This document shows positions 50,942 to 64,000 of a stretch of DNA of 64,000 bases, one piece after another. The translations under genes and the position numbers were made by a program. The notes below the pieces were generated by a model. The model did no database searches. It was not told the origin of the DNA and was given only the letters and a program-made list of their open reading frames with translations. This stretch comes from Gammaproteobacteria bacterium (GTDB taxonomy: Bacteria > Pseudomonadota > Gammaproteobacteria > Eutrophobiales > Eutrophobiaceae), in contig JANQNX010000010.1 of NCBI GenBank assembly GCA_028279365.1, positions 270,206 through 334,205 of the forward strand, given 5' to 3'. Every line of letters begins with the position of its first letter. Position 1 is the stretch's first letter.

Positions 50942-52219
50942 TTAAATATTGTAACCTCGCTCATTGTGCAAGGCGATGTCCAGACCTTCCGTTTCCTGCT
51001 CATCATCTACCCGCAGCCCAAGCGTTTTATCCAGTAATTTAAGGATAATAAAACTGATAACACCACACCAGACGATGGTAGCGACCACACCACAGAACTG
51101 CACACCAAATTGAGAAGCAATAGAGTAGACTTCGTCTTCCGCTTGTAAGCCACCCATCGATTTTGCGTAAAAAACTGCGGTTAGTAATGTGCCCAGGATG
51201 CCACCGACGCCGTGCACTGGAAACACATCAAGCGAATCATCAATTTTTAATACGCGTTTGATGTATTGGGTACAAACGAAACAGATGACACCAGCCAGTA
51301 GTCCTATGACTAATCCACCGATGGGACCCACATAACCCGAAGCAGGCGTAATCGTACCCAATCCGGCCACCATGCCGGTGACAATACCGAGCACGCTGGG
51401 TTTACCAAATTTTATCCATTCACAAGCCATCCAGGCCAGGGATCCAACTGCAGCAGAGATATGCGTTACCGCAATCGCCATACCGGCACTATTGTCTGCT
51501 GCCAGTGCACTACCCCCATTAAAACCAAACCAACCTACCCAGAGCATTGATGCGCCGGCCACAACAATAGTCATATTGTGGGGTGCCATGGGTGTCTCCG
51601 GAAAGCCTCTTCGATTACCTAACATAATAGCGGCGATCAACGCTGCCACCCCGGCATTAATATGCACTACCGCTCCTCCTGCAAAATCCATAAAGCCTAT
51701 ATCAGCTAACCAACCACCGCCCCAAACCCAATGGCAAACAGGTGCATAAACAAGCACCAACCAGATTGCACTAAACCAGAGTACTGATGAAAAGCGCATA
51801 CGTTCAGCAAAACCGCCGACAATCAAGGCGGGCGTAATAATGGCAAAGGTCATTTGAAACATGAAAAATACGATCTCTGGAATGGAACCACTCATTGAAT
51901 CCAGCGCCAGATCTGACAGCATAAAATTACCCAAACCGATTATCTTGTTTAAGCCTTCTCCACCATCACCAAAGGCCAGACCATAAACCCCGAACATCCA
52001 AAGGACAGACACCATACAAGCGATAGCAAAACACTGCATCAACACAGACAGCACGTTCTTTACCCGCACCAGTCCGGAATAAAATAAGGCCAGGCCCGGT
52101 AAGGTCATAAATAGCACCAGTGCCGTTGAGGTAATGATCCAGGCGGTATCGCCTTTATCTAATTCACTGGCAAATACCGGTAGTGGCAATAGACACAAAA
52201 AAATGAATACGCGAAGCAT
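50942..52219 (-). CDS. amtB: Ammonium transporter (second copy, with signal peptide)
   Basis: A 425-residue ammonium channel of the inner membrane with a cleavable signal (FIFLCLLPLPVFA) and 11 predicted helices. The twin-histidine pore residues are in AVVHINAGVAAL and FPVHGVGGILG; the phenylalanine gate and WVGWFGFNGGSAL loop are present. It lies 45 bp after glnK on the same strand, the usual glnK-amtB unit. It resembles the E. coli AmtB branch, unlike the first copy. Confidence 0.95.
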   Translation of the reverse strand: MLRVFIFLCLLPLPVFASELDKGDTAWIITSTALVLFMTLPGLALFYSGLVRVKNVLSVLMQCFAIACMVSVLWMFGVYGLAFGDGGEGLNKIIGLGNFMLSDLALDSMSGSIPEIVFFMFQMTFAIITPALIVGGFAERMRFSSVLWFSAIWLVLVYAPVCHWVWGGGWLADIGFMDFAGGAVVHINAGVAALIAAIMLGNRRGFPETPMAPHNMTIVVAGASMLWVGWFGFNGGSALAADNSAGMAIAVTHISAAVGSLAWMACEWIKFGKPSVLGIVTGMVAGLGTITPASGYVGPIGGLVIGLLAGVICFVCTQYIKRVLKIDDSLDVFPVHGVGGILGTLLTAVFYAKSMGGLQAEDEVYSIASQFGVQFCGVVATIVWCGVISFIILKLLDKTLGLRVDDEQETEGLDIALHNERGYNI

Positions 52220-52264
52220 GAATTCTCCCCTCTCTTAAAATTAACTACTATTTTCTTTTTATAA

Positions 52265-52621
<357 letters not shown>

Positions 52622-52649
52622 TCAGTTTTATTCATTTGTTTTCTTACGG

Positions 52650-52665
52650 TGCAGTTTTTGCACCA
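52650..52665 (-). promoter_or_regulatory. Sigma-54 promoter candidate for the second glnK-amtB pair
   Basis: On the reverse strand TGGTGCAAAAACTGCA has GG and GC ten bases apart, as in TGGCAC-N5-TTGCA. It lies 46 bp before the glnK start. The same bases also form a perfect inverted repeat (GGTGCA-N5-TGCACC), so a hairpin or an operator is an alternative. Confidence 0.6.
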
Positions 52666-52755
52666 AAGCAGTACGAATTTAACCTATAAACTGGGGGATT
52701 TCATCTTTGGACGGATTTTAATTTCAAGGGAGGGGGAAAACCCTGAGAAAAATAC

Positions 52756-52785
52756 AAAAAAAAACGGGCGCCAAGCGCCCGTTTT
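52756..52785 (-). terminator. Rho-independent terminator after the first amtB
   Basis: CGGGCGC-CAA-GCGCCCG, a perfect 7-bp stem, is followed on the reverse strand by nine T. It lies 20 bp after the amtB stop at 52805, so the two glnK-amtB pairs are separate units. Confidence 0.9.
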
Positions 52786-52804
52786 GAAAAGAGGGAAAAA
52801 GCGT

Positions 52805-54067
52805 TTATTTTGTTTGTGTGAATTCAGGATAGGCTTCCATCCCACATTCACTCATATCAACACCTTCAATCTCTTCTTCTTCGCTAACCCTAATACCCAT
52901 AATCGCTTTAATGATTATCCAGGTAATCAAGCTGGCAACGAAGACCCATACAAAGATGGTTAACATACCCACTAACTGACCACCAAATGTGGCGTCTCCA
53001 TCGCTAATGAGTACCGCAAAGATACCCCAAATACCGACAACACCATGAACAGAGATTGCACCGACAGGATCATCAATCTTCAATTTATCAAGGGTAATAA
53101 TACTGAATACCACCAGAACACCACCGGCTGCACCGATTAACGTAGCCATCAGTGCTGTTGGATCGGCAGGCTCGGCAGTAATGGCAACCAGTCCCGCTAA
53201 TGCACCATTCAATGCCATGGTTAAGTCAGCCTTACCAAACATGATACGAGCGACAATTAATGCTGCAATCAAACCACCGGCTGCTGCTGCATTGGTATTA
53301 AGGAATACGTAAGCCACTTCGTTGGCCACTGCAATTCCACCGAGTTTTAAGGTAGAACCACCGTTAAAACCAAACCAACCCATCCATAAGATAAAGGTAC
53401 CTAAGGTAGCTAAGGGTAAGTTAGCGCCTGGAATAGCTTTTGGCTTGCCATCAGCAGAATATTTACCGCGTCGAGCACCCAAGACAATGACACCCGCCAG
53501 CGCTGCTGCTGCACCGGCCAAGTGAACAATACCGGAACCTGCATAGTCGCTGTAGCTTAATTCATAAAGACCGAATACTGAATTACCGCCCCAGGTCCAA
53601 CCGCCTTCTAATGGGTAAATAACACCGGTCATCACAACGGCAAACACCAGAAACGCCCATAACTTCATACGTTCTGCTACCGCACCCGAGACAATCGACA
53701 TTGCTGTCGCGACAAACACGACCTGGAAGAAAAAGTCTGACGCACCTGAATAAACAGAATCACCGTCAAACCCGTTTTCGGCAGAGGCTGCTAGTGCAGC
53801 TTCAACATCAAGATTTCCTACTGTTTCAATACCAGATAAAAAGTATCCGCCGCCATACATAAATTGATAACCACATACCATATACATGGTACTGGCAACA
53901 GCGAATAGCGCTACGTTCTTGGTTAAAATTTCGGTTGTGTTCTTTGAACGTACCAAACCGGATTCAAGCATGGCAAAGCCTGCCGCCATCCACATAACCA
54001 GTGCGCCACATACCAGAAAATAAAAGGTATCCATAGCGTACTGTAATTCAAATATATTATTTTCCAC
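52805..54067 (-). CDS. amtB: Ammonium transporter (first copy)
   Basis: A 420-residue ammonium channel without a cleaved signal. It starts with an extra segment typical of the longer Amt branch (YAMDTFYFLVCGALVMWMAAGFAMLE, in parts FYFLVCGALVMW and GFAMLESGL). Pore histidines are in GIVHLAGAAAALAG and ISVHGVVGIWG. The sequence differs strongly from the second copy, so the two are not a recent duplication. It follows the first glnK by 48 bp. Confidence 0.95.
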   Translation of the reverse strand: MENNIFELQYAMDTFYFLVCGALVMWMAAGFAMLESGLVRSKNTTEILTKNVALFAVASTMYMVCGYQFMYGGGYFLSGIETVGNLDVEAALAASAENGFDGDSVYSGASDFFFQVVFVATAMSIVSGAVAERMKLWAFLVFAVVMTGVIYPLEGGWTWGGNSVFGLYELSYSDYAGSGIVHLAGAAAALAGVIVLGARRGKYSADGKPKAIPGANLPLATLGTFILWMGWFGFNGGSTLKLGGIAVANEVAYVFLNTNAAAAGGLIAALIVARIMFGKADLTMALNGALAGLVAITAEPADPTALMATLIGAAGGVLVVFSIITLDKLKIDDPVGAISVHGVVGIWGIFAVLISDGDATFGGQLVGMLTIFVWVFVASLITWIIIKAIMGIRVSEEEEIEGVDMSECGMEAYPEFTQTK

Positions 54068-54115
54068 TGTAATCCTCCCGCAGATAGAATTGTGAAATCA
54101 GTAAATTAATAATGA

Positions 54116-54502
<387 letters not shown>

Positions 54503-55949: not shown

Positions 55950-57713
55950 TCAAGAAGGCTGTTGATTTTCGATAAAGCGACGCCAGCCGCCAAAGTGTGA
56001 AATATCTTCGGCATCATTTACTGCATACGCTTCACAAATAAAACTGCTTACCTGAGTATTATCTTCCAGAAAAATTTTCCCTATACCTAAGGGGTGCGGT
56101 ATTCCTTTTATAAAACTGCCAAGCTCAGTGACCGGCATTCGCCAGACTTCAACTTCAATTTTACAACCATGCTGTTCATCAAATATCAAACCAGGGCGAA
56201 AAGGAGGACCACCAGCAAGCGCATAAAGTCGGTAGTCAGGTGCAGTCTTGGTTTGTTTGAGCAAAATTGCGCCACGATCGGTTAGCTGGTGGTTCAATGG
56301 CATGCCTGAGAGGTGAGCACCACAAACAGCGATATCGATCATTTGCTGCTGGTTTAACTTATCGAGGTCAATTGGCAGATCGTTCATAATAGTTGTCGCA
56401 ATTGATAAGAGCGTAGGATCACAATCACGTTCACTAAATAACGTTACACCAAAAGGGAACTGACTCTCGTCAACGCCAGCCGGGATAGCAATAGCAGCGT
56501 AATCCAACAAGTTCATGAAATTTGTGTAATAGCCAAGGTTGGAATTCAGGCTAATCGGATCCTGCATGACTTCATCAATCGTGTAATAACTGCCAATGGT
56601 TGGCGTGACAATAAAATCAACATCGTCAATAATCTTATCCGCTTCGCGTTTTAATTCTTGCAAACGATAAATGTTAGTAAACGCATCAACGGTAAGCTTT
56701 TGTTTGGCTGGCAAAATAATATCTTTCGTTACAGGATGTAATGCGTCCGGATTGCTCGCGATAAATGATTCAATCGCTGTGTAGCGTTCTGCTACCCAGG
56801 GTCCTTCATAGAGTAAAGCTGCAGCCTCAGTAAACGATGAAAAATCAATTCGCGTGATTTCATAACTCAGTTCAACTAACTTCTTGATGAATGTGTCAAA
56901 ACAGGTTTTGTATCCTTCATTGCCATAGAAAGCTAACTGCGGTTCAAGCGGGACACCAATCTTGCCATTGAAAGTCTTGATACAGGCTCTATCTTTTTTG
57001 GCATAGCTATCGTTTGGATCATATTTATCGACAAGATTAAAAACGTGTTCTGCATCCTGAACACTATTCGCAAAAATACTGACGCAATCCAGACTACGAC
57101 AGGCTGGTACGACACCGGAAGAACTTATTCTGCCTTTGCTAGGTTTCAATCCAACCAGGTTATTCAATGCGGCAGGTACGCGACCAGAGCCTGCTGTATC
57201 AGTGCCTAATGAAAAACTCACTTGTCCGAGGGCCAATGCCACTGCCGAGCCTGAACTGGAACCGCCAGAAATGATATCCGGGTTGTAGGCATTTTTTACC
57301 GCGCCATAAGGCGAACGCGTTCCAACAAGGCCGGTGGCAAATTGATCCAGATTGGTTTTCCCTATGGGTATGGCACCCGCGTCGATTAACAATTGCACTA
57401 CAAAGGCGGATTGTTGAGGTATATAACTGTATTCTTTACATGCTGCTGTCGTAGGAATACCGGCTAAATCAATATTATCTTTTATTGCGAAGGGAATCCC
57501 GTATAGAGGCAGATCATCCGGCCCTTTATTTTCCAGCTTAGAAAGGTAACTCTGTAATTCATCATCATTAAGCGTATGTATCCAGATATTGTAATCGTCA
57601 TAAGACTCGATACTGGATTTAATATCTTGACAAAGTAATGAAGGTGTTAACTTACCTTCGCGATATAACTTATGTAACACATTAATACTTAATGAGGTTC
57701 TATTCTGAATCAT
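55950..57713 (-). CDS. atzF: Allophanate hydrolase
   Basis: AtzF splits allophanate into ammonia and CO2, the last step of the urea-carboxylase and guanidine-carboxylase routes. The 587-residue protein has an amidase-signature domain with K78 (IPFAIKDN), S153 (GGSSSGSA) and S177 (TDTAGSGRVP), and a C-terminal domain of about 130 residues typical of AtzF (LYALAGGPPFRPGL). It follows the carboxyltransferase gene by 6 bp. Confidence 0.95.
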   Translation of the reverse strand: MIQNRTSLSINVLHKLYREGKLTPSLLCQDIKSSIESYDDYNIWIHTLNDDELQSYLSKLENKGPDDLPLYGIPFAIKDNIDLAGIPTTAACKEYSYIPQQSAFVVQLLIDAGAIPIGKTNLDQFATGLVGTRSPYGAVKNAYNPDIISGGSSSGSAVALALGQVSFSLGTDTAGSGRVPAALNNLVGLKPSKGRISSSGVVPACRSLDCVSIFANSVQDAEHVFNLVDKYDPNDSYAKKDRACIKTFNGKIGVPLEPQLAFYGNEGYKTCFDTFIKKLVELSYEITRIDFSSFTEAAALLYEGPWVAERYTAIESFIASNPDALHPVTKDIILPAKQKLTVDAFTNIYRLQELKREADKIIDDVDFIVTPTIGSYYTIDEVMQDPISLNSNLGYYTNFMNLLDYAAIAIPAGVDESQFPFGVTLFSERDCDPTLLSIATTIMNDLPIDLDKLNQQQMIDIAVCGAHLSGMPLNHQLTDRGAILLKQTKTAPDYRLYALAGGPPFRPGLIFDEQHGCKIEVEVWRMPVTELGSFIKGIPHPLGIGKIFLEDNTQVSSFICEAYAVNDAEDISHFGGWRRFIENQQPS

Positions 57714-57719
57714 AGTGAT

Positions 57720-59720
57720 TTAAGAATGATTTAATTCACCGGTTTCTATCCATCGCTGTCGCTCCGCTTCAAAAGCTTGTTGCTGCTGAAACTTGAAACG
57801 TTCAATATCTTTCTTATTGTCATTTAAAAACATTTGATATTGATCAAAATCAAATTCGATCTGTTCTATCTTTAAATGGTAATCGCCATTTGGAAAGTCA
57901 TGTCTTATTTCCGCCAGTTCTTCCTCGCTGACCGGGAAGAAACGAATTTGATCAAAGAAACGAAGCAACCAGGGTTTATCTTCTTCAAAATCAGTGTTGT
58001 TTTCTCCCCTATTCCACATCTGTAAGGTGCGTCCGACAAACTGATAACCGCCCGGGCCTTCCATGCCATAGACACAGAGATAGGCTCCACCAATACCTAC
58101 CGCATTTTCAGGCGTCCAAGTTCGTGCCGGATTGTACTTGGTTGTCACCAATCGGTGTCTTGGATCAAGCGGCGTCGCTACTGGCGCGCCAAGATACACA
58201 TCACCCAGTCCCATGACTAAATAATCTGCATCAAACACTATCTGCTTGACCTGATTGATACTACCAAGTCCATTAACGCGTTGGATAAAATCGATATTGC
58301 TCGGACACCAGGGCGCGTCATCTCTCACAGATTGCATGTAGATATCGATCGCTTTTTGAGTAGACGGATCGTTCCAGCTTAGTGGTAAAAAAATGCGACG
58401 CGCCGGTATTTTTATTTGTGATGTGTTTTCTAATTCCTTTTCAGCTGCCTCAAGCACATCGATTAATTCATAGACATTCAACTTTTTATTATCAAAATGA
58501 ATCTGTAAGGATCGAATGCCGGGGGTCAGATCAATAATCCCTTCAGCAATATTTTTACTGATCCATTCCATTAACAAATGTGCCTTGAGCCTAAGCGAGA
58601 TATCCAGCTTCATCTCACCGTACTCAACCAGAATATTGTCTTCACCTGATAAACGATAGACGACATCAGGCCGCTCATCGCTATAACGTATTTCTCGATG
58701 AATTGCCTTTTCCGGTTTAACCGGAAAAATCTCTAGCGGTGTATCAGAGCTTAATGATGCAATCTCTTGTAATTGCTTTTCTTCTAACAACTCAGCCTGC
58801 TCAACACTGATTGGGATAAAACGCACGGTATCATCCGTTTTTAATTGGCCCATTTTCCAGAGATCGGCTTTGATGATAGTTGCAGGACAAACAAAGCCAC
58901 CCAGACTCGGACCATCCGGACCGAGAATCACAGGCATATCTCCAGTGAAATCTACGGTACCAATCGCATAGGGGTTATCATGGAGGTTAGAAGGGTGTAA
59001 TCCGGCCTCACCACCATCCTGCCTGGCCCATTTAGGCTTGGGTCCAATTAAACGAACACCGGTGCGGTTTGAGTTGTAATGAATTTTCCAATCAGTAGAA
59101 AAAAACATCTCGATATCAGACTCGGTAAAAAAATCCGGTGCGCCTTGTGGACCATACAAAACATGAATCGACCAATCATTCTTATACAAGGGCACTAATA
59201 AAGGATCGATGAATTGACACAGCGTCTTATCATGTTGCTCATTGAGAAATAACTGATCATTCTTTTGTAAGGCCCTGCCTTGGTGTCCACCAAACTGCCC
59301 TAGCGTAAACGTCGACTGACTGGATAAATAAGGTTCAACCTGCAAACCATTTCTAAAACAAAGATAAGCACGCATGCCAACAACAACAGACTCAATTTTC
59401 AGGACGGTGCCTGCTTTAACACGAATGGCTGACCACTGCGGCATTGACGCCCCATTCAAAAACATCCTGACCGGGGCACCGGTTAAACAGATGATGGTTT
59501 CAACATTAAACTTTAGCTCTGGACCTATCAGTGTGATCTCAAGCCCCGCAGCCGATTCATCATTGCCGAGGATCTGGTTACCCAAACGAAAGGCAAAATT
59601 ATCCATAGGCCCGGACGGCGGGATACCGACATGCCAATAACCTGTTCGACCAGGATAATCCTGTATCGTTGTTTGTAATCCCGGCGTTAACACCTCAATT
59701 GATGACATTGGCTTACTCAT
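57720..59720 (-). CDS. Carboxyltransferase-only urea/guanidine carboxylase homologue
   Basis: A 666-residue protein that matches only the middle of urea or guanidine carboxylase. Residues 1-310 are the AHS2/KipA-like half ([26 protein letters not shown]); residues 345-600 are the AHS1/KipI-like half ([27 protein letters not shown]). It starts where the biotin carboxylase domain normally ends and stops where the biotin-carrier domain would begin; there is no MKM biotinyl motif. It overlaps UAAP2 by 8 bp. In context it is a carboxyltransferase that needs a separate biotin carboxylase and carrier, or it works without biotin like PxpBC 5-oxoprolinase. Confidence 0.9.
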
Positions 59721-60354
59721 CCCAAATCAGCACTTCTATTGGTGTCGGGTTATAGGCATTACAAGGGTTATTTAACTGCGGACAATTTGAGATTAAGGCA
59801 ATTACATCAACACGGGCAGTTAGCTCGACATACTTACCCGCATCAGAGATGCCATCAGCAAACGTTAGTCCCCCTTCGGCAGTTACCGGTACGTTCATAA
59901 AGAAATTAATGTTATGTGTAATATCGCGTTTACTCATATTAAATTCGGGATGTTCGGCAATCGCCAACATCCAACTATCACGACAAGCATGCATACATTT
60001 TTTTTCCAATGCATAACGTACCGTATTCGACTCGGTAGCGCAGGCGCCGCCCAGCGTATCGTGACGGCCGCAGGTATCAGCGACTATTTCCAGCAAGGGA
60101 TTCCCAAAATTTGAAAGCAATGTCGTTTTCGCTGTGAGATACACATTACCCTGCTCGCGAATCGTATCGATTGCAGAATAACGCTCTTCCGGATCATCAG
60201 CATGAAAGAATAAAGTATCGGCAGCCTGATTGCCTTCAAGATCAAGGATGCGTAACGTTTGATCGGCCTTGATAACATGCATCCAATAATCGCCGGCATC
60301 AACAACCTGACGATAGCTGGCATCATTCGCCACGCGCGAACTTTCTCTAATCAT
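59713..60354 (-). CDS. Urea amidolyase-associated protein 2 (carboxyguanidine deiminase subunit)
   Basis: A 213-residue member of the UAAP2 group. UAAP1 and UAAP2 together form carboxyguanidine deiminase (CgdAB), which turns carboxyguanidine to allophanate. The sequence shows [12 protein letters not shown] with conserved Cys/His/Asp and [10 protein letters not shown]. The start ATG at 60354 overlaps the UAAP1 stop (ATGA), so a 25-codon upstream extension is rejected. Confidence 0.92.
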
Positions 60355-61094
60355 GGTCGCGCTCCTGTTAAATGGTACAGCGCGTTGTTTTGAAAACCTC
60401 GCTGGTTCTCCGCGCATGCATTCATGCAAAGATCGTCATCCATCAACGGCGCTGACTTTATAATCTGATACTCCAGCGCTTTCTTTGGATAGGCTTCAGC
60501 ATCACTCATTGGATGCGGACAGGTATGCATGATGACCAGCGTATCCATTTCAAATCGCAGAGCAACACTATCACCCGCCTGACTATTCGAAGCATCAAAA
60601 GACATATTGCCTTCATCATCGGTATGAACCCGGCTAAACCAGTTGACGTTTGCGGCTATATCGCGTCGACCCAAACCATGCTTGGCTAATTCAACCAGAA
60701 ATGCGTGTTCACCACTGATGGTCCAGTCGTTACGTTGTGTTTGATAACTTTTGACACCCCATTTCTTTTCAAGCTGGGCATCAGTCAGCAAACCACCGAC
60801 CGTATCATGCCAGCCAACACTATCATCAGTAATAGAACAAAAGATACGACCCATGTCCGAGTAGAGGCAATGTCCCTTGGTCAGTTTAAATGTATGCTGA
60901 CACTTCAGCGTATCAGGCGCGTTGTAGCGCTCCAATTTATCCAGCGGATTGTAAAACAGCATTCCGACATTGGCTCCGCCTTCCTTATCAATCAATCTTA
61001 GCGTTGTGCCTCTGCGCATTAGTAACGACCAGTGCGCACCACCAGGAATCGTATCTTCATACATGATTTCTTTATCAGGAAATATTTCAGCCAT
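60351..61094 (-). CDS. Urea amidolyase-associated protein 1 (carboxyguanidine deiminase subunit)
   Basis: A 247-residue UAAP1 protein, the partner of UAAP2 in carboxyguanidine deiminase. Motifs are [27 protein letters not shown] and [10 protein letters not shown], parallel to those in UAAP2, which shows common origin. It is the first large gene after the guanidine-I riboswitch. An AGGAG lies 9 nt upstream of its ATG, and a 27-codon ORF overlaps its start. Confidence 0.92.
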
Positions 61095-61170
61095 GATGAA
61101 TCACTCCTGTTCCAATAAATAGCGGAACAAGTAATTTAGCTGGAAAATGTTGCAGGTCTTGTTTTGACAT
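61087..61170 (-). CDS. Possible 27-residue leader/small membrane peptide
   Basis: An ORF too short for routine calling sits between the riboswitch and UAAP1. ATG at 61168-61170 is preceded by a strong GGAGAG 5 nt away. It encodes 27 residues with a hydrophobic core (KLLVPLFIGTGVI) and ends in HHG. Its TGA overlaps the first codons of UAAP1, so the two are coupled. It could be a real small membrane protein or a translated leader. Confidence 0.45.
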   Translation of the reverse strand: MSKQDLQHFPAKLLVPLFIGTGVIHHG

Positions 61171-61225
61171 ATTTTCTCTCCAGTTATCACACGTTAAGTC
61201 TATGCCATGTAAAACATGGCTTTAG

Positions 61226-61316
61226 TTCTCCCGGGCTTTTCTCCCGCCGTGTAACCTTCGAGAAGGCCGATGACTCTCGGACCAGTCGCTTGTGCAAGCC
61301 GGAACCCTAGTCATCC
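61226..61316 (-). ncRNA. Guanidine-I (ykkC class) riboswitch
   Basis: On the reverse strand the conserved blocks appear in order: GACTAGGGTTCCG, ACTGGTCCGAGAG, ACACGGCGGGA and AAAAGCCCGGGAGA. These are the hallmarks of the ykkC RNA. The linked genes (UAAP1, UAAP2, carboxylase, allophanate hydrolase) point to the guanidine-sensing subtype. A 7-bp hairpin (GCCATGT/ACATGGC) follows at about 61204-61220 and may belong to the expression platform. Confidence 0.93.
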
Positions 61317-61325
61317 ATTTATTAG

Positions 61326-61354
61326 ACTATAGCAATAATCAAACACTCTGTTAA
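61326..61354 (-). promoter_or_regulatory. Sigma-70 promoter of the guanidine operon
   Basis: On the reverse strand TTAACA (61349-61354) and TATAGT (61326-61331) are 17 bp apart. Transcription would begin near 61319, exactly at the riboswitch, so this operon starts here. Confidence 0.65.
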
Positions 61355-61374: not shown

Positions 61375-62211
61375 TTAATTTAATAATTCAAATCGTTGTT
61401 TCATGCTGTCTGCCATCCATTGATTTATCACATCAACATCTACTAACGGTCTGCCATCTACAGGGTCAAAATACTCATATCTGTCAGCACCGAACTCCGG
61501 TGTCAACGTTGTGAATTTTCTCGACTGTTTATGATGTTCATGCCAGATCCATGACCACCATTCAGCGTATTTTTCCTGATCATCTTTAAATAAAGGCGTG
61601 CGCGGATCAGGGATCTGTGGCCCCTGGTCATAGCCTACCCGGCCATGGATATGCCAGGCATTGGGCAATAATGATTTAATGATGTCTTCTTCAGTTTCTT
61701 GCAAACCTTCACAGACAACAGACCAGTGACTGAAGTCACAGGTCAATTTTATAGACGGTATTTTGTTTACTATGCGTTCTGTTATCCAGGGATTAAAAAA
61801 AATCCTGCCTCTGTGCGTTTCAAAACTAATGTCCATATTATTTTTCGCTACGATATCCATTGCCGTTGTTAAGAACGTGATCGAATCTGATTCAGACCAG
61901 GCATCGCAACCGCCAAGGCAGGTAATAAATTCGGGTTGCAGAGTCTTTAAGCGATCAATCCTGTCCTCCAGATAAATGAGGTGATCTTCAACGCTGAGTC
62001 TTCTATCCGGCACATAACTACCGGTCGTCGCGACTTCGGCAATATAGAGTAAACCATATTGTCTGAGTAACTCAGCAAATTGTTCAGTTTCGTGGATAGT
62101 TTCAGGGACAGGTCCTTCGATACCGTCATAGCCTTGTTCTTTTGCCCGCTTTACCGCTTCTGTATGCGAACCGGTAAAACCCCACAATGTTTTAAATAGC
62201 TTAAGCTGCAT
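61375..62211 (-). CDS. Xylose-isomerase-like TIM-barrel protein
   Basis: A 278-residue sugar phosphate isomerase/epimerase-type barrel. The likely metal ligands are Glu in SFETHRGR, Asp/His in CDFSHW, His in AWHIHGRVGY and Glu in TPEFGADR. Substrate unknown. It follows the desaturase gene by 3 bp on the same strand and ends about 20 bp before the guanidine-operon promoter, with no terminator between, so readthrough into the riboswitch is possible. Confidence 0.85.
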   Translation of the reverse strand: MQLKLFKTLWGFTGSHTEAVKRAKEQGYDGIEGPVPETIHETEQFAELLRQYGLLYIAEVATTGSYVPDRRLSVEDHLIYLEDRIDRLKTLQPEFITCLGGCDAWSESDSITFLTTAMDIVAKNNMDISFETHRGRIFFNPWITERIVNKIPSIKLTCDFSHWSVVCEGLQETEEDIIKSLLPNAWHIHGRVGYDQGPQIPDPRTPLFKDDQEKYAEWWSWIWHEHHKQSRKFTTLTPEFGADRYEYFDPVDGRPLVDVDVINQWMADSMKQRFELLN

Positions 62212-62214
62212 AGA

Positions 62215-63189
62215 TTAAACCCCGGCCAGAAATGAAACCCCTGCAGCACCGTAATTAACATCGACAGGATTTTCTCCTGTTTCGTGAACGCGTTTTACCC
62301 GGAATTGATGAAAGTCAGATAACTGTTGCTTTAGCGAGACTTCAGGCGCAGTTTTATCTGCATAATGCTCACGATGTAACTGCGGCAGACGATGCCAGGG
62401 TTCAGCGGGTCGATGATGATGCACATTGTGATAACAAAAGTTTAATACCAGCAAATTTAAGCACGGATATTTTTCAGATAGCAAATTACTCCAGGTGTGT
62501 GCCTCTTCATAATTCCGATCGAATTCTGGAAACACTTTCTCTTCATCCAGGTTCACCCGTACTTCATAGATATGTTGAAATGCATCCATAAAGCCCAGCA
62601 CCCTTATGAAGAGCAAGTAAGCAAGGCTATAGATAATCATTGTTTTCCAACTCCAAAGGGCCAATGCAGAAAAAAACAGAAAACGTAAACCCAGAATAGT
62701 TAGCACCCTATTTCGCTGATGTTTACGCGCAGGCAAAATAAATGGCGCAGCAATGCTTAATATATGCGTTAATATTTCTACTGCCGGAATGTAAAACCAT
62801 TCCAGTATTTCAACCAGGTGGCAAATCATAGGGTGTTTTTCTAAAAAAGCCTGGTGATCAATCGCAAGGGAATCGACCCGGTTCGCATGATGGCGCATAT
62901 GTTTCTTTTTCAAACACTCGTATTCCGAATAACAGGCACCGGTAATCCATGATAATGCGCTGGCCAGCGCTATATTCTTATGATTATCACGTAATAAGGT
63001 TTTATGTATGCATTCATGCAATAAATACGCAGCAATGATCAGGCTATGCGATAGCAATAATAAGGCTAGTAGATTTAATAAAAGATTATCTTGTGCTGCC
63101 CAGTAAAAGGATAAGATGTAACCGGTAAACACATAGACAAACGCACAAAAGTTAGGAATAACACCATCACGATATTTGAATAATTGCAT
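62215..63189 (-). CDS. Membrane fatty-acid desaturase/hydroxylase family protein
   Basis: A 324-residue membrane di-iron enzyme. The three histidine boxes are HECIHK, HMRHH and HNVHHH, spread between about four membrane helices. Such proteins desaturate or hydroxylate lipids, alkanes or other compounds, and a few act on amines, so the substrate is open. It is placed between a glutamine-synthetase-like gene and the TIM-barrel gene, with 3 bp to the latter. No reductase nearby. Confidence 0.88.
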   Translation of the reverse strand: MQLFKYRDGVIPNFCAFVYVFTGYILSFYWAAQDNLLLNLLALLLLSHSLIIAAYLLHECIHKTLLRDNHKNIALASALSWITGACYSEYECLKKKHMRHHANRVDSLAIDHQAFLEKHPMICHLVEILEWFYIPAVEILTHILSIAAPFILPARKHQRNRVLTILGLRFLFFSALALWSWKTMIIYSLAYLLFIRVLGFMDAFQHIYEVRVNLDEEKVFPEFDRNYEEAHTWSNLLSEKYPCLNLLVLNFCYHNVHHHRPAEPWHRLPQLHREHYADKTAPEVSLKQQLSDFHQFRVKRVHETGENPVDVNYGAAGVSFLAGV

Positions 63190-63228
63190 AACATCATCTC
63201 GCTTCCGGGTCGTCCCAATAATAAATAC

Positions 63229-63252
63229 ACGTTAAAGGTCGTCCCTTAACGT
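63229..63252 (-). repeat. Inverted repeat between glnT and the desaturase gene
   Basis: ACGTTAAAGG and CCCTTAACGT form a 10-bp stem with one G-U pair and a 4-nt loop, 7 bp beyond the glnT stop. GGTCGTCCC occurs twice nearby (63208-63216, 63237-63245). No T-run follows on the reverse strand, so it is a stabilising or processing stem at best. Confidence 0.5.
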
Positions 63253-63258
63253 ATTACT

Positions 63259-64000
63259 CTAGAATAAATGACTATACCGCTCTATCTCCCAGGCACTGAC
63301 ACTCTGGTGATACTCTTCCCACTCTTCTGTTTTATAACGAATAAATTCGTCTTTCAATTCTTTACCTAAAGTGGCTTCGATTAAAGGGTCATCAGTAAAG
63401 GCCTGGACTGCCTCAGCCAATGTTTGTGGTAAGAACTCGATACCGCGTTTCGTGCGTTCCTCATCGGTTAATTCATATAAGTTATCTTCCTGTGGACTTC
63501 CCGGATCAATCTTTTCGCGCACGCCTTCCAGACCAGCCGCTAATGCTAATGTCGCGGCCAGATAAGGATTCACTGACCCATCAGCATTACGGGATTCGCA
63601 ACGTCCCCCGCCCATGGGCACACGAACTGAATTGGTTCGATTATTGGAACCATAGGAATTAAATACCGGTGCCCAACTAAAATAACTCATCGCACCTTGC
63701 CTGACCAAACGTTTGTAACTGTTTACCGTGGGTGCAAACGCGGCACATAAGGCGCGGCCATGTTTTAAGATACCTCCAATAAAATAATAGCCGGTTTCGG
63801 TTAGACCTAAACCGCGCGTATCGTCTTTTGGATCACAGGCAAAGACATTATCGCCTGATTCCAGATCGAACAAAGACATATTAAAATGCGCACCATTACC
63901 GGTTTTATCCTTAAACGGTTTTGGCATAAAGGTCGCGATCAAGCCCTCATCTTTGGCGTAACGTTTGGCCAGTTCACGAAAGAAGATAAACCGATCACAC
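63259..64000 (-). CDS. glnT: GlnT-type (type III) glutamine synthetase, C-terminal part (cut by window edge)
   Basis: A ligase that joins glutamate to ammonia or a small amine (some relatives make gamma-glutamylmethylamide). The frame stays open to the edge ([13 protein letters not shown] upstream of [13 protein letters not shown]), so the N-terminal part lies outside. Motifs are [26 protein letters not shown] (ATP/Glu site), [11 protein letters not shown] and [13 protein letters not shown]. The C-terminal [17 protein letters not shown] is the GlnT signature. Part of the nitrogen region at this end. Confidence 0.9.

Follow-up and report, generated by a model that had tools for sequence, protein, structure and literature searches.

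Urea and guanidine carboxylases have been described as single multidomain chains. In the guanidine carboxylase (Gca) systems, an enzyme of about 1,200 residues (model TIGR02712) joins a biotin carboxylase (BC), a carboxyltransferase (CT) and a biotin carboxyl carrier protein (BCCP) domain, and its operon partners are the carboxyguanidine deiminase CgdAB and the allophanate hydrolase AtzF, under guanidine riboswitch control. Here we describe an operon that has the same partners and the same kind of riboswitch but, unlike the Gca systems, no BC and no BCCP. It lies in a 64,000-nucleotide stretch of a gammaproteobacterial genome (assembly GCA_028279365.1, contig JANQNX010000010.1, positions 270,206 to 334,205; hereafter, the window), and its 666-residue CT is ∼55–62% identical from end to end to the CTs of full-length guanidine carboxylases and has the guanidine-type Asp. 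We consider it likely that this protein is a working guanidine CT without a BC or BCCP of its own, fed by AccB and AccC.

Two other described systems each resemble part of this arrangement. The PxpBC proteins of 5-oxoprolinase (KipI/KipA) share the CT_A_B and CT_C_D folds with the window CT and likewise have neither BC nor BCCP; unlike it, they are separate subunits adjoining PxpA. Scores of 159 of 500 bits for PxpC and 35 of 146 bits for PxpB place the window CT outside PxpABC, and there is no LamB/YcsF gene (PxpA) among the open reading frames (ORFs) of the locus. In mycobacteria, the BC–BCCP subunit AccA3 serves several CTs, namely AccD4, AccD5 and AccD6 (PMC4347857), and thus offers a precedent for one source feeding more than one CT; unlike the window CT, these are acyl-CoA enzymes of another fold. 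In the searchable literature, subscription-journal primary papers aside, we found no description of a urea- or guanidine-carboxylase-type CT served by a shared BC–BCCP.

The operon is transcribed from the minus strand in the order riboswitch, UAAP1, UAAP2, CT, AtzF, as the original prediction had it, and each element is borne out by family models. A Guanidine-I riboswitch aptamer (61226–61321; RF00442, 87.9 bits against a gathering score of 63) is followed by UAAP1 (60351–61094; TIGR03425, 331 bits) and UAAP2 (59713–60429 as the ORF is listed; TIGR03424, 327 bits), the two carboxyguanidine deiminase subunits, both above cut-off. Next come the stand-alone CT (57720–59720; CT_A_B and CT_C_D in Pfam, with a partial match to TIGR02712) and AtzF (55950–57713), a 587-residue protein with an amidase and a C-terminal domain (TIGR02713, 749.5 bits, above cut-off; PF21986 AH_C). 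CgdAB (UAAP1/UAAP2), AtzF and a guanidine riboswitch, whose presence within one operon identifies the guanidine carboxylase pathway, are thus found together. The real start of UAAP2 is likely the ATG near 60354 rather than the upstream TTG, in which case UAAP1 and UAAP2 overlap by ∼4 nt; UAAP2 proteins of the sister species introduced below are 213–229 residues long. Just upstream of the riboswitch, a consensus scan gives a sigma-70-like promoter candidate (61326–61354, minus strand; TTAACA-17-TATAGT with an extended TG) that matches 10 of 12 consensus positions, which is weak evidence given that shuffled sequences average 1.0 such matches. Between the riboswitch and UAAP1 there is also a small out-of-frame ORF of ∼25 or more codons (ATGTCAAAACAAGAC..., window ∼61092–61170).

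CT_A_B and CT_C_D are the only Pfam domains of the 666-residue protein, which aligns to positions 445–1112 of the 1201-position TIGR02712 model. Its score of 1029 bits falls under the equivalog cut-off of 1304, as expected because two domains are missing. By phmmer, residues 7–647 match the Kluyveromyces lactis urea amidolyase/carboxylase structures 5i8i and 3va7, and the match spans the whole CT portion of the amidolyase structure. No N-terminal BC domain is found in the CT ORF or elsewhere in the operon, the model match beginning at 445, and no C-terminal BCCP domain is found either, the match ending at 1112 of 1201 with the stop codon 6 nt before AtzF. In full-length relatives, the BC ends just ahead of the point where this CT starts, and the linker and BCCP begin just past the point where it ends. 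In other words, the claim that only the CT is left, cut cleanly at both domain borders, is upheld. A BC in a shifted frame, in an adjacent gene or as a remnant can be ruled out, as the borders abut UAAP2 (the CT start overlaps the UAAP2 stop by 8 nt) and AtzF; a frameshifted BC, which would have undone the claim, was found at neither border. In the sister species, the CT begins at a Met equivalent to residue 5 of the window CT (position ∼59708). The C-terminus of UAAP2 (IEVLIWDE) and the N-terminus of the CT (SIEVL) are encoded by similar DNA (window 59690–59760), possibly left by a deletion between short repeats.

The same form is present in four further species of a second genus of the same family, found by searching 53 genomes of the order; their stand-alone CTs are 661 residues long, lie in frames of 671–680 codons and are 76–77% identical to the window CT. 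Elsewhere the full-length enzyme prevails. A CT is present in 31 of the 369 genomes of our class sample, and in this sample, the window aside, CTs not cut by contig ends sit in open frames of ∼1,190–1,260 residues; in the phylum sample of 399 genomes, every other match lies in a frame of at least 1,171 residues. A GTDB-based collection of 80 loci contains 75 with BC in frame, one truncated at a contig end and four without BC, and these four, from the metagenome-assembled genomes (MAGs) OFTM63, OFTM102, B_MB66 and UBA973, appear to be the four sister species. All four share the gene order importer, creatininase-like, glutamine synthetase (GS)-like, UAAP1, UAAP2, CT, AtzF, with two Guanidine-I riboswitches at the same two places as in the window genome. 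The chromosomal site is likewise common to the five, with a Mg-chelatase-like gene on one side and an outer-membrane-type gene and GlnK/AmtB on the other; all five have tandem GlnK–AmtB pairs flanking the guanidine genes (window 50942–54454; loci L067, L068, L069 and L070). In a tree of 104 CTs, the five BC-less proteins form one clade (SH-aLRT 100) with one change of state, which fits a single old loss; the simplest history has BC and BCCP disappearing once, ahead of the divergence of the two genera.

Is the shortened protein still under constraint as an enzyme? Pairwise ratios of nonsynonymous to synonymous substitution rates (dN/dS) among the four sister-genus CTs are 0.056–0.077, indicating strong purifying selection, near those of the GS-like and creatininase-like genes and lower than that of AtzF in the same genus; synonymous sites are saturated between the two genera. 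As a measure of family conservation, we took the 202 CT positions that are at least 97% conserved across 99 full-length CTs. Each BC-less protein keeps 98.5–99.5% of them, and 199 of the 202 are identical in all five, versus 37% kept in two PxpBC pairs. The column of N1330 in the K. lactis urea amidolyase (KlUA), which we take to be the site that sets guanidine apart from urea carboxylases, is Asp (D257) in all five BC-less CTs and in 98 of the 99 full-length ones. If this column is indeed the site, D257 would be the guanidine-type Asp and the protein would have guanidine specificity; Asp marks guanidine carboxylases and Asn urea carboxylases (PMC12186494). The catalytic Lys of the TIGR02712 family is also in place in all five, as K528, equivalent to KlUA K1605, the general base of that enzyme (PMC5770610). 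The sequence evidence thus supports the view that BC and BCCP were lost cleanly, leaving a functional CT, rather than through decay.

Because BC and BCCP are absent from the CT chain, the carboxybiotin donor must come from elsewhere. A Biotin_carb_C search of the five BC-less genomes returned a single protein per genome, AccC; in G392, a family member with the full-length enzyme, the same search returned three proteins. With the BC of the G392 guanidine carboxylase as the query, AccC was the sole match in the window genome, and the sister genomes gave AccC plus weak matches in a 1082-residue frame that is probably CarB; neither search found a second BC in the window genome or the four sisters. 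In the window genome, a biotin motif was detected in one carrier alone, AccB: three other strong Biotin_lipoyl matches bear lipoyl motifs, and of two weak matches one was read and lacks a biotin motif. At least two sister genomes encode an additional biotinyl protein of ∼605 residues, probably the alpha subunit of oxaloacetate decarboxylase, which the window genome does not have. The unchanged conserved residues suggest that the CT is still biotin-dependent; if so, AccB/AccC would be the donor by elimination, there being no other BC detected in the five genomes and no other biotin-type carrier detected in that of the window. We therefore think it most likely that the CT takes carboxybiotin from the AccB/AccC of fatty-acid synthesis. 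The search proposed with the original prediction, for a lone BC–BCCP gene elsewhere in the genome, thus ended at AccC and AccB in the window genome, where a full-length guanidine carboxylase at another site was also excluded; its suggestion that a separate AccC/AccB might serve the CT gains support by elimination, from the sole BC of five genomes and the sole biotin-type carrier of one.

In the pathway that we propose, guanidine would enter through an ABC importer, and Guanidine-I riboswitches would switch the operon on. Housekeeping AccC would carboxylate biotin on AccB at the expense of ATP and bicarbonate, and carboxybiotinyl-AccB would dock on the CT, which would transfer the carboxyl group to guanidine. 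UAAP1/UAAP2 would then deiminate carboxyguanidine to allophanate, and AtzF would split allophanate into ammonia and CO2. That the CT is active, that it acts on guanidine and that AccB/AccC is its donor are all inferred from sequence.

Several points weigh against this proposal. Six residues that are at least 90% conserved elsewhere (P129, G133, H192, I246, A250 and K460) are changed in all five BC-less CTs, and such clade-specific changes might mean an altered function; an AlphaFold model of the CT built from five close sequences, with a pLDDT of 32, is unusable for placing them. The interaction of the CT with AccB/AccC is reached by elimination, and no AccB or AccC substitution separates CT-carrying from CT-lacking relatives, an uninformative result as none is required. 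A separate BC could have been missed in the sister MAGs, though not easily in the window genome, which is rated 100% complete. The cluster also encodes another enzyme that uses ATP, the GS-like ligase, though this ligase is found alongside full-length carboxylases too.

What, then, of other explanations? With BC and BCCP missing from the operon, the CT could be imagined to make carboxyguanidine by a route that needs no carboxybiotin, such as one from carboxyphosphate or one coupled to another ATP-using enzyme of the cluster. The CT-fold PxpBC proteins of 5-oxoprolinase act without BC or BCCP, the GS-like ligase is ATP-dependent, and a few CT substitutions are specific to the clade. We nonetheless regard this biotin-independent route, which the original prediction had offered as its other option, as unlikely: the conserved CT positions are nearly all kept, whereas the biotin-free PxpBC has lost most of them, no PxpA-like gene is present among the ORFs of the locus, and the GS-like and creatininase-like genes also stand beside full-length carboxylases (the seven loci given below). 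Quite improbable, too, is a CT that has been repurposed for another acceptor, for the reverse reaction, for regulation or as a scaffold, in which case CgdAB and AtzF would be supplied by another route. The changes at P129, G133, H192, A250 and K460 and the additional guanidine-regulated enzymes nearby would suit such a role, but D257, K528 and nearly the whole conserved set persist in all five species, and the gene occupies the same place in the gene order as the full-length enzyme of a relative, L071.

A dedicated BC and carrier might also exist but be absent from the assemblies or too divergent for detection. The window genome is in 17 contigs and the other four are draft MAGs (85–96% complete), but given the completeness of the former and two BC searches that yield only AccC, plus the weak probable CarB in the sisters, we find this very doubtful. 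Finally, a degraded or misassembled, non-functional CT gene is exceedingly improbable. Two of three domains have been lost, and the family does contain a decayed locus, but the same borders recur in five species of two genera, with intact frames, a dN/dS of 0.06–0.08 and, for the window, a 433-kb contig; on this point, the prediction that the gene is not degraded holds. Genuine degradation looks different: in family member G393 (L072:5703–8595), a guanidine carboxylase locus is decaying, with two internal stops and a split AtzF. Returning to a CT fed by AccB/AccC, what we see from sequence is a variant guanidine carboxylase whose novelty lies in how its subunits are arranged, not in its chemistry; the expectation of a new form of guanidine assimilation thus stands as to the arrangement of subunits, the chemistry being probably ordinary.

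The operon itself is as first described, but guanidine-regulated genes continue upstream of it and beyond the window end, so that it is only the last part of a larger cluster; the whole has three guanidine riboswitches in total, and the rest of it had been missed. The cluster begins with a Guanidine-I riboswitch, an ABC importer (binding protein, permease and ATPase), a creatininase-like gene and a GS-like ligase gene, and continues with a Guanidine-II riboswitch, a hydroxylase gene and a TIM-barrel gene, followed by the UAAP1–UAAP2–CT–AtzF operon. The window holds the C-terminal part of the GS-family ligase (63259–64000, minus strand; type III/gamma-glutamylmethylamide synthetase-like; PF00120, TIGR03105); the complete gene encodes 483 residues (L002:9260–10711 in our locus numbering), and the nearest solved structure is the glutamate–methylamine ligase 9qur. 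The creatininase-like and importer genes and the other Guanidine-I riboswitch lie upstream of it, outside the window. The creatininase-like and GS-like pair (L002:9260–11417) recurs by guanidine carboxylases in L047, L058, L071, L150, L151, L177 and L178, and stands beside full-length enzymes in Gammaproteobacteria, Verrucomicrobiota and Desulfobulbia. As replacements for the BC, the GS-like, creatininase-like, hydroxylase and TIM-barrel genes are all ruled out, since they recur beside full-length carboxylases. In the searchable literature, we found no paper tying guanidine riboswitches to creatininase or guanidine carboxylase to glutamine synthetase.

The hydroxylase (62215–63189, minus strand) is a 324-residue membrane protein of the FA_desaturase family (PF00487, 96.8 bits) with invariant His motifs HxxxH, HxxHH and HxxHH and a weak likeness to the arginine hydroxylase GntB (NF041365, 24.6 bits, E 1.5e-5, far under cut-off). 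Directly upstream, on the same strand, is the Guanidine-II riboswitch (63206–63250; RF01068, 34.6 bits, just over the gathering score of 32), and a riboswitch of this class likewise directly precedes the hydroxylase and TIM-barrel genes in L071 (the three together at L071:5041–6913). The adjoining 278-residue TIM-barrel protein (61375–62211, minus strand; PF01261, AP_endonuc_2/xylose-isomerase-like) has conserved E/D/H residues resembling a metal site and a predicted fold like those of sugar 3-epimerases and related lyases (TM ∼0.6–0.67), and may be a lyase or isomerase that works with the hydroxylase. The pair accompanies full-length enzymes in several members of the class; the four sister species lack it in their BC-less clusters. 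In the class sample, 9 of 11 hydroxylase genomes have a CT versus 31 of 369 overall (Fisher p ∼3e-9, uncorrected for relatedness); a scan of genome contigs with the hydroxylase alone, using patterns that proved too specific, confirmed no relatives. In some relatives, a conserved 260-residue protein and an EamA-like transporter adjoin the pair (L049:6002–6784, L051:13575–14360, L056:3797–4579); they are not in the window. The closest described counterpart is MgdH/MgdL of Vreelandella, a hydroxylase and partner whose guanidine carboxylase cluster has riboswitches of both the Guanidine-I and the Guanidine-II class, the latter binding methylguanidine as well (PMC12508155). Unlike MgdH, which is a 2-oxoglutarate dioxygenase, the hydroxylase here has the FA_desaturase fold, and its partner is a TIM barrel. 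By analogy with MgdH/MgdL, and because a Guanidine-II riboswitch stands ahead of the hydroxylase both here and in L071, we hypothesize that the pair, unrelated to MgdH, might release guanidine from an alkylguanidine, perhaps by demethylating methylguanidine.

For a class of enzymes known as single chains, a CT-only lineage would be a natural split, and its CT is small enough to be attractive for structural studies. The neighbouring guanidine-regulated genes point to further candidate enzymes for alkylguanidines. Were the stand-alone CT to carboxylate without biotin, drawing on bicarbonate activated by other means, it would define a biotin-free pathway of guanidine assimilation. The reading that we favour raises a different question, testable with few proteins: can AccB/AccC feed a CT that does not act on acyl-CoA? 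If so, guanidine nitrogen assimilation in these bacteria would be tied to the biotin carboxylase of fatty-acid synthesis.

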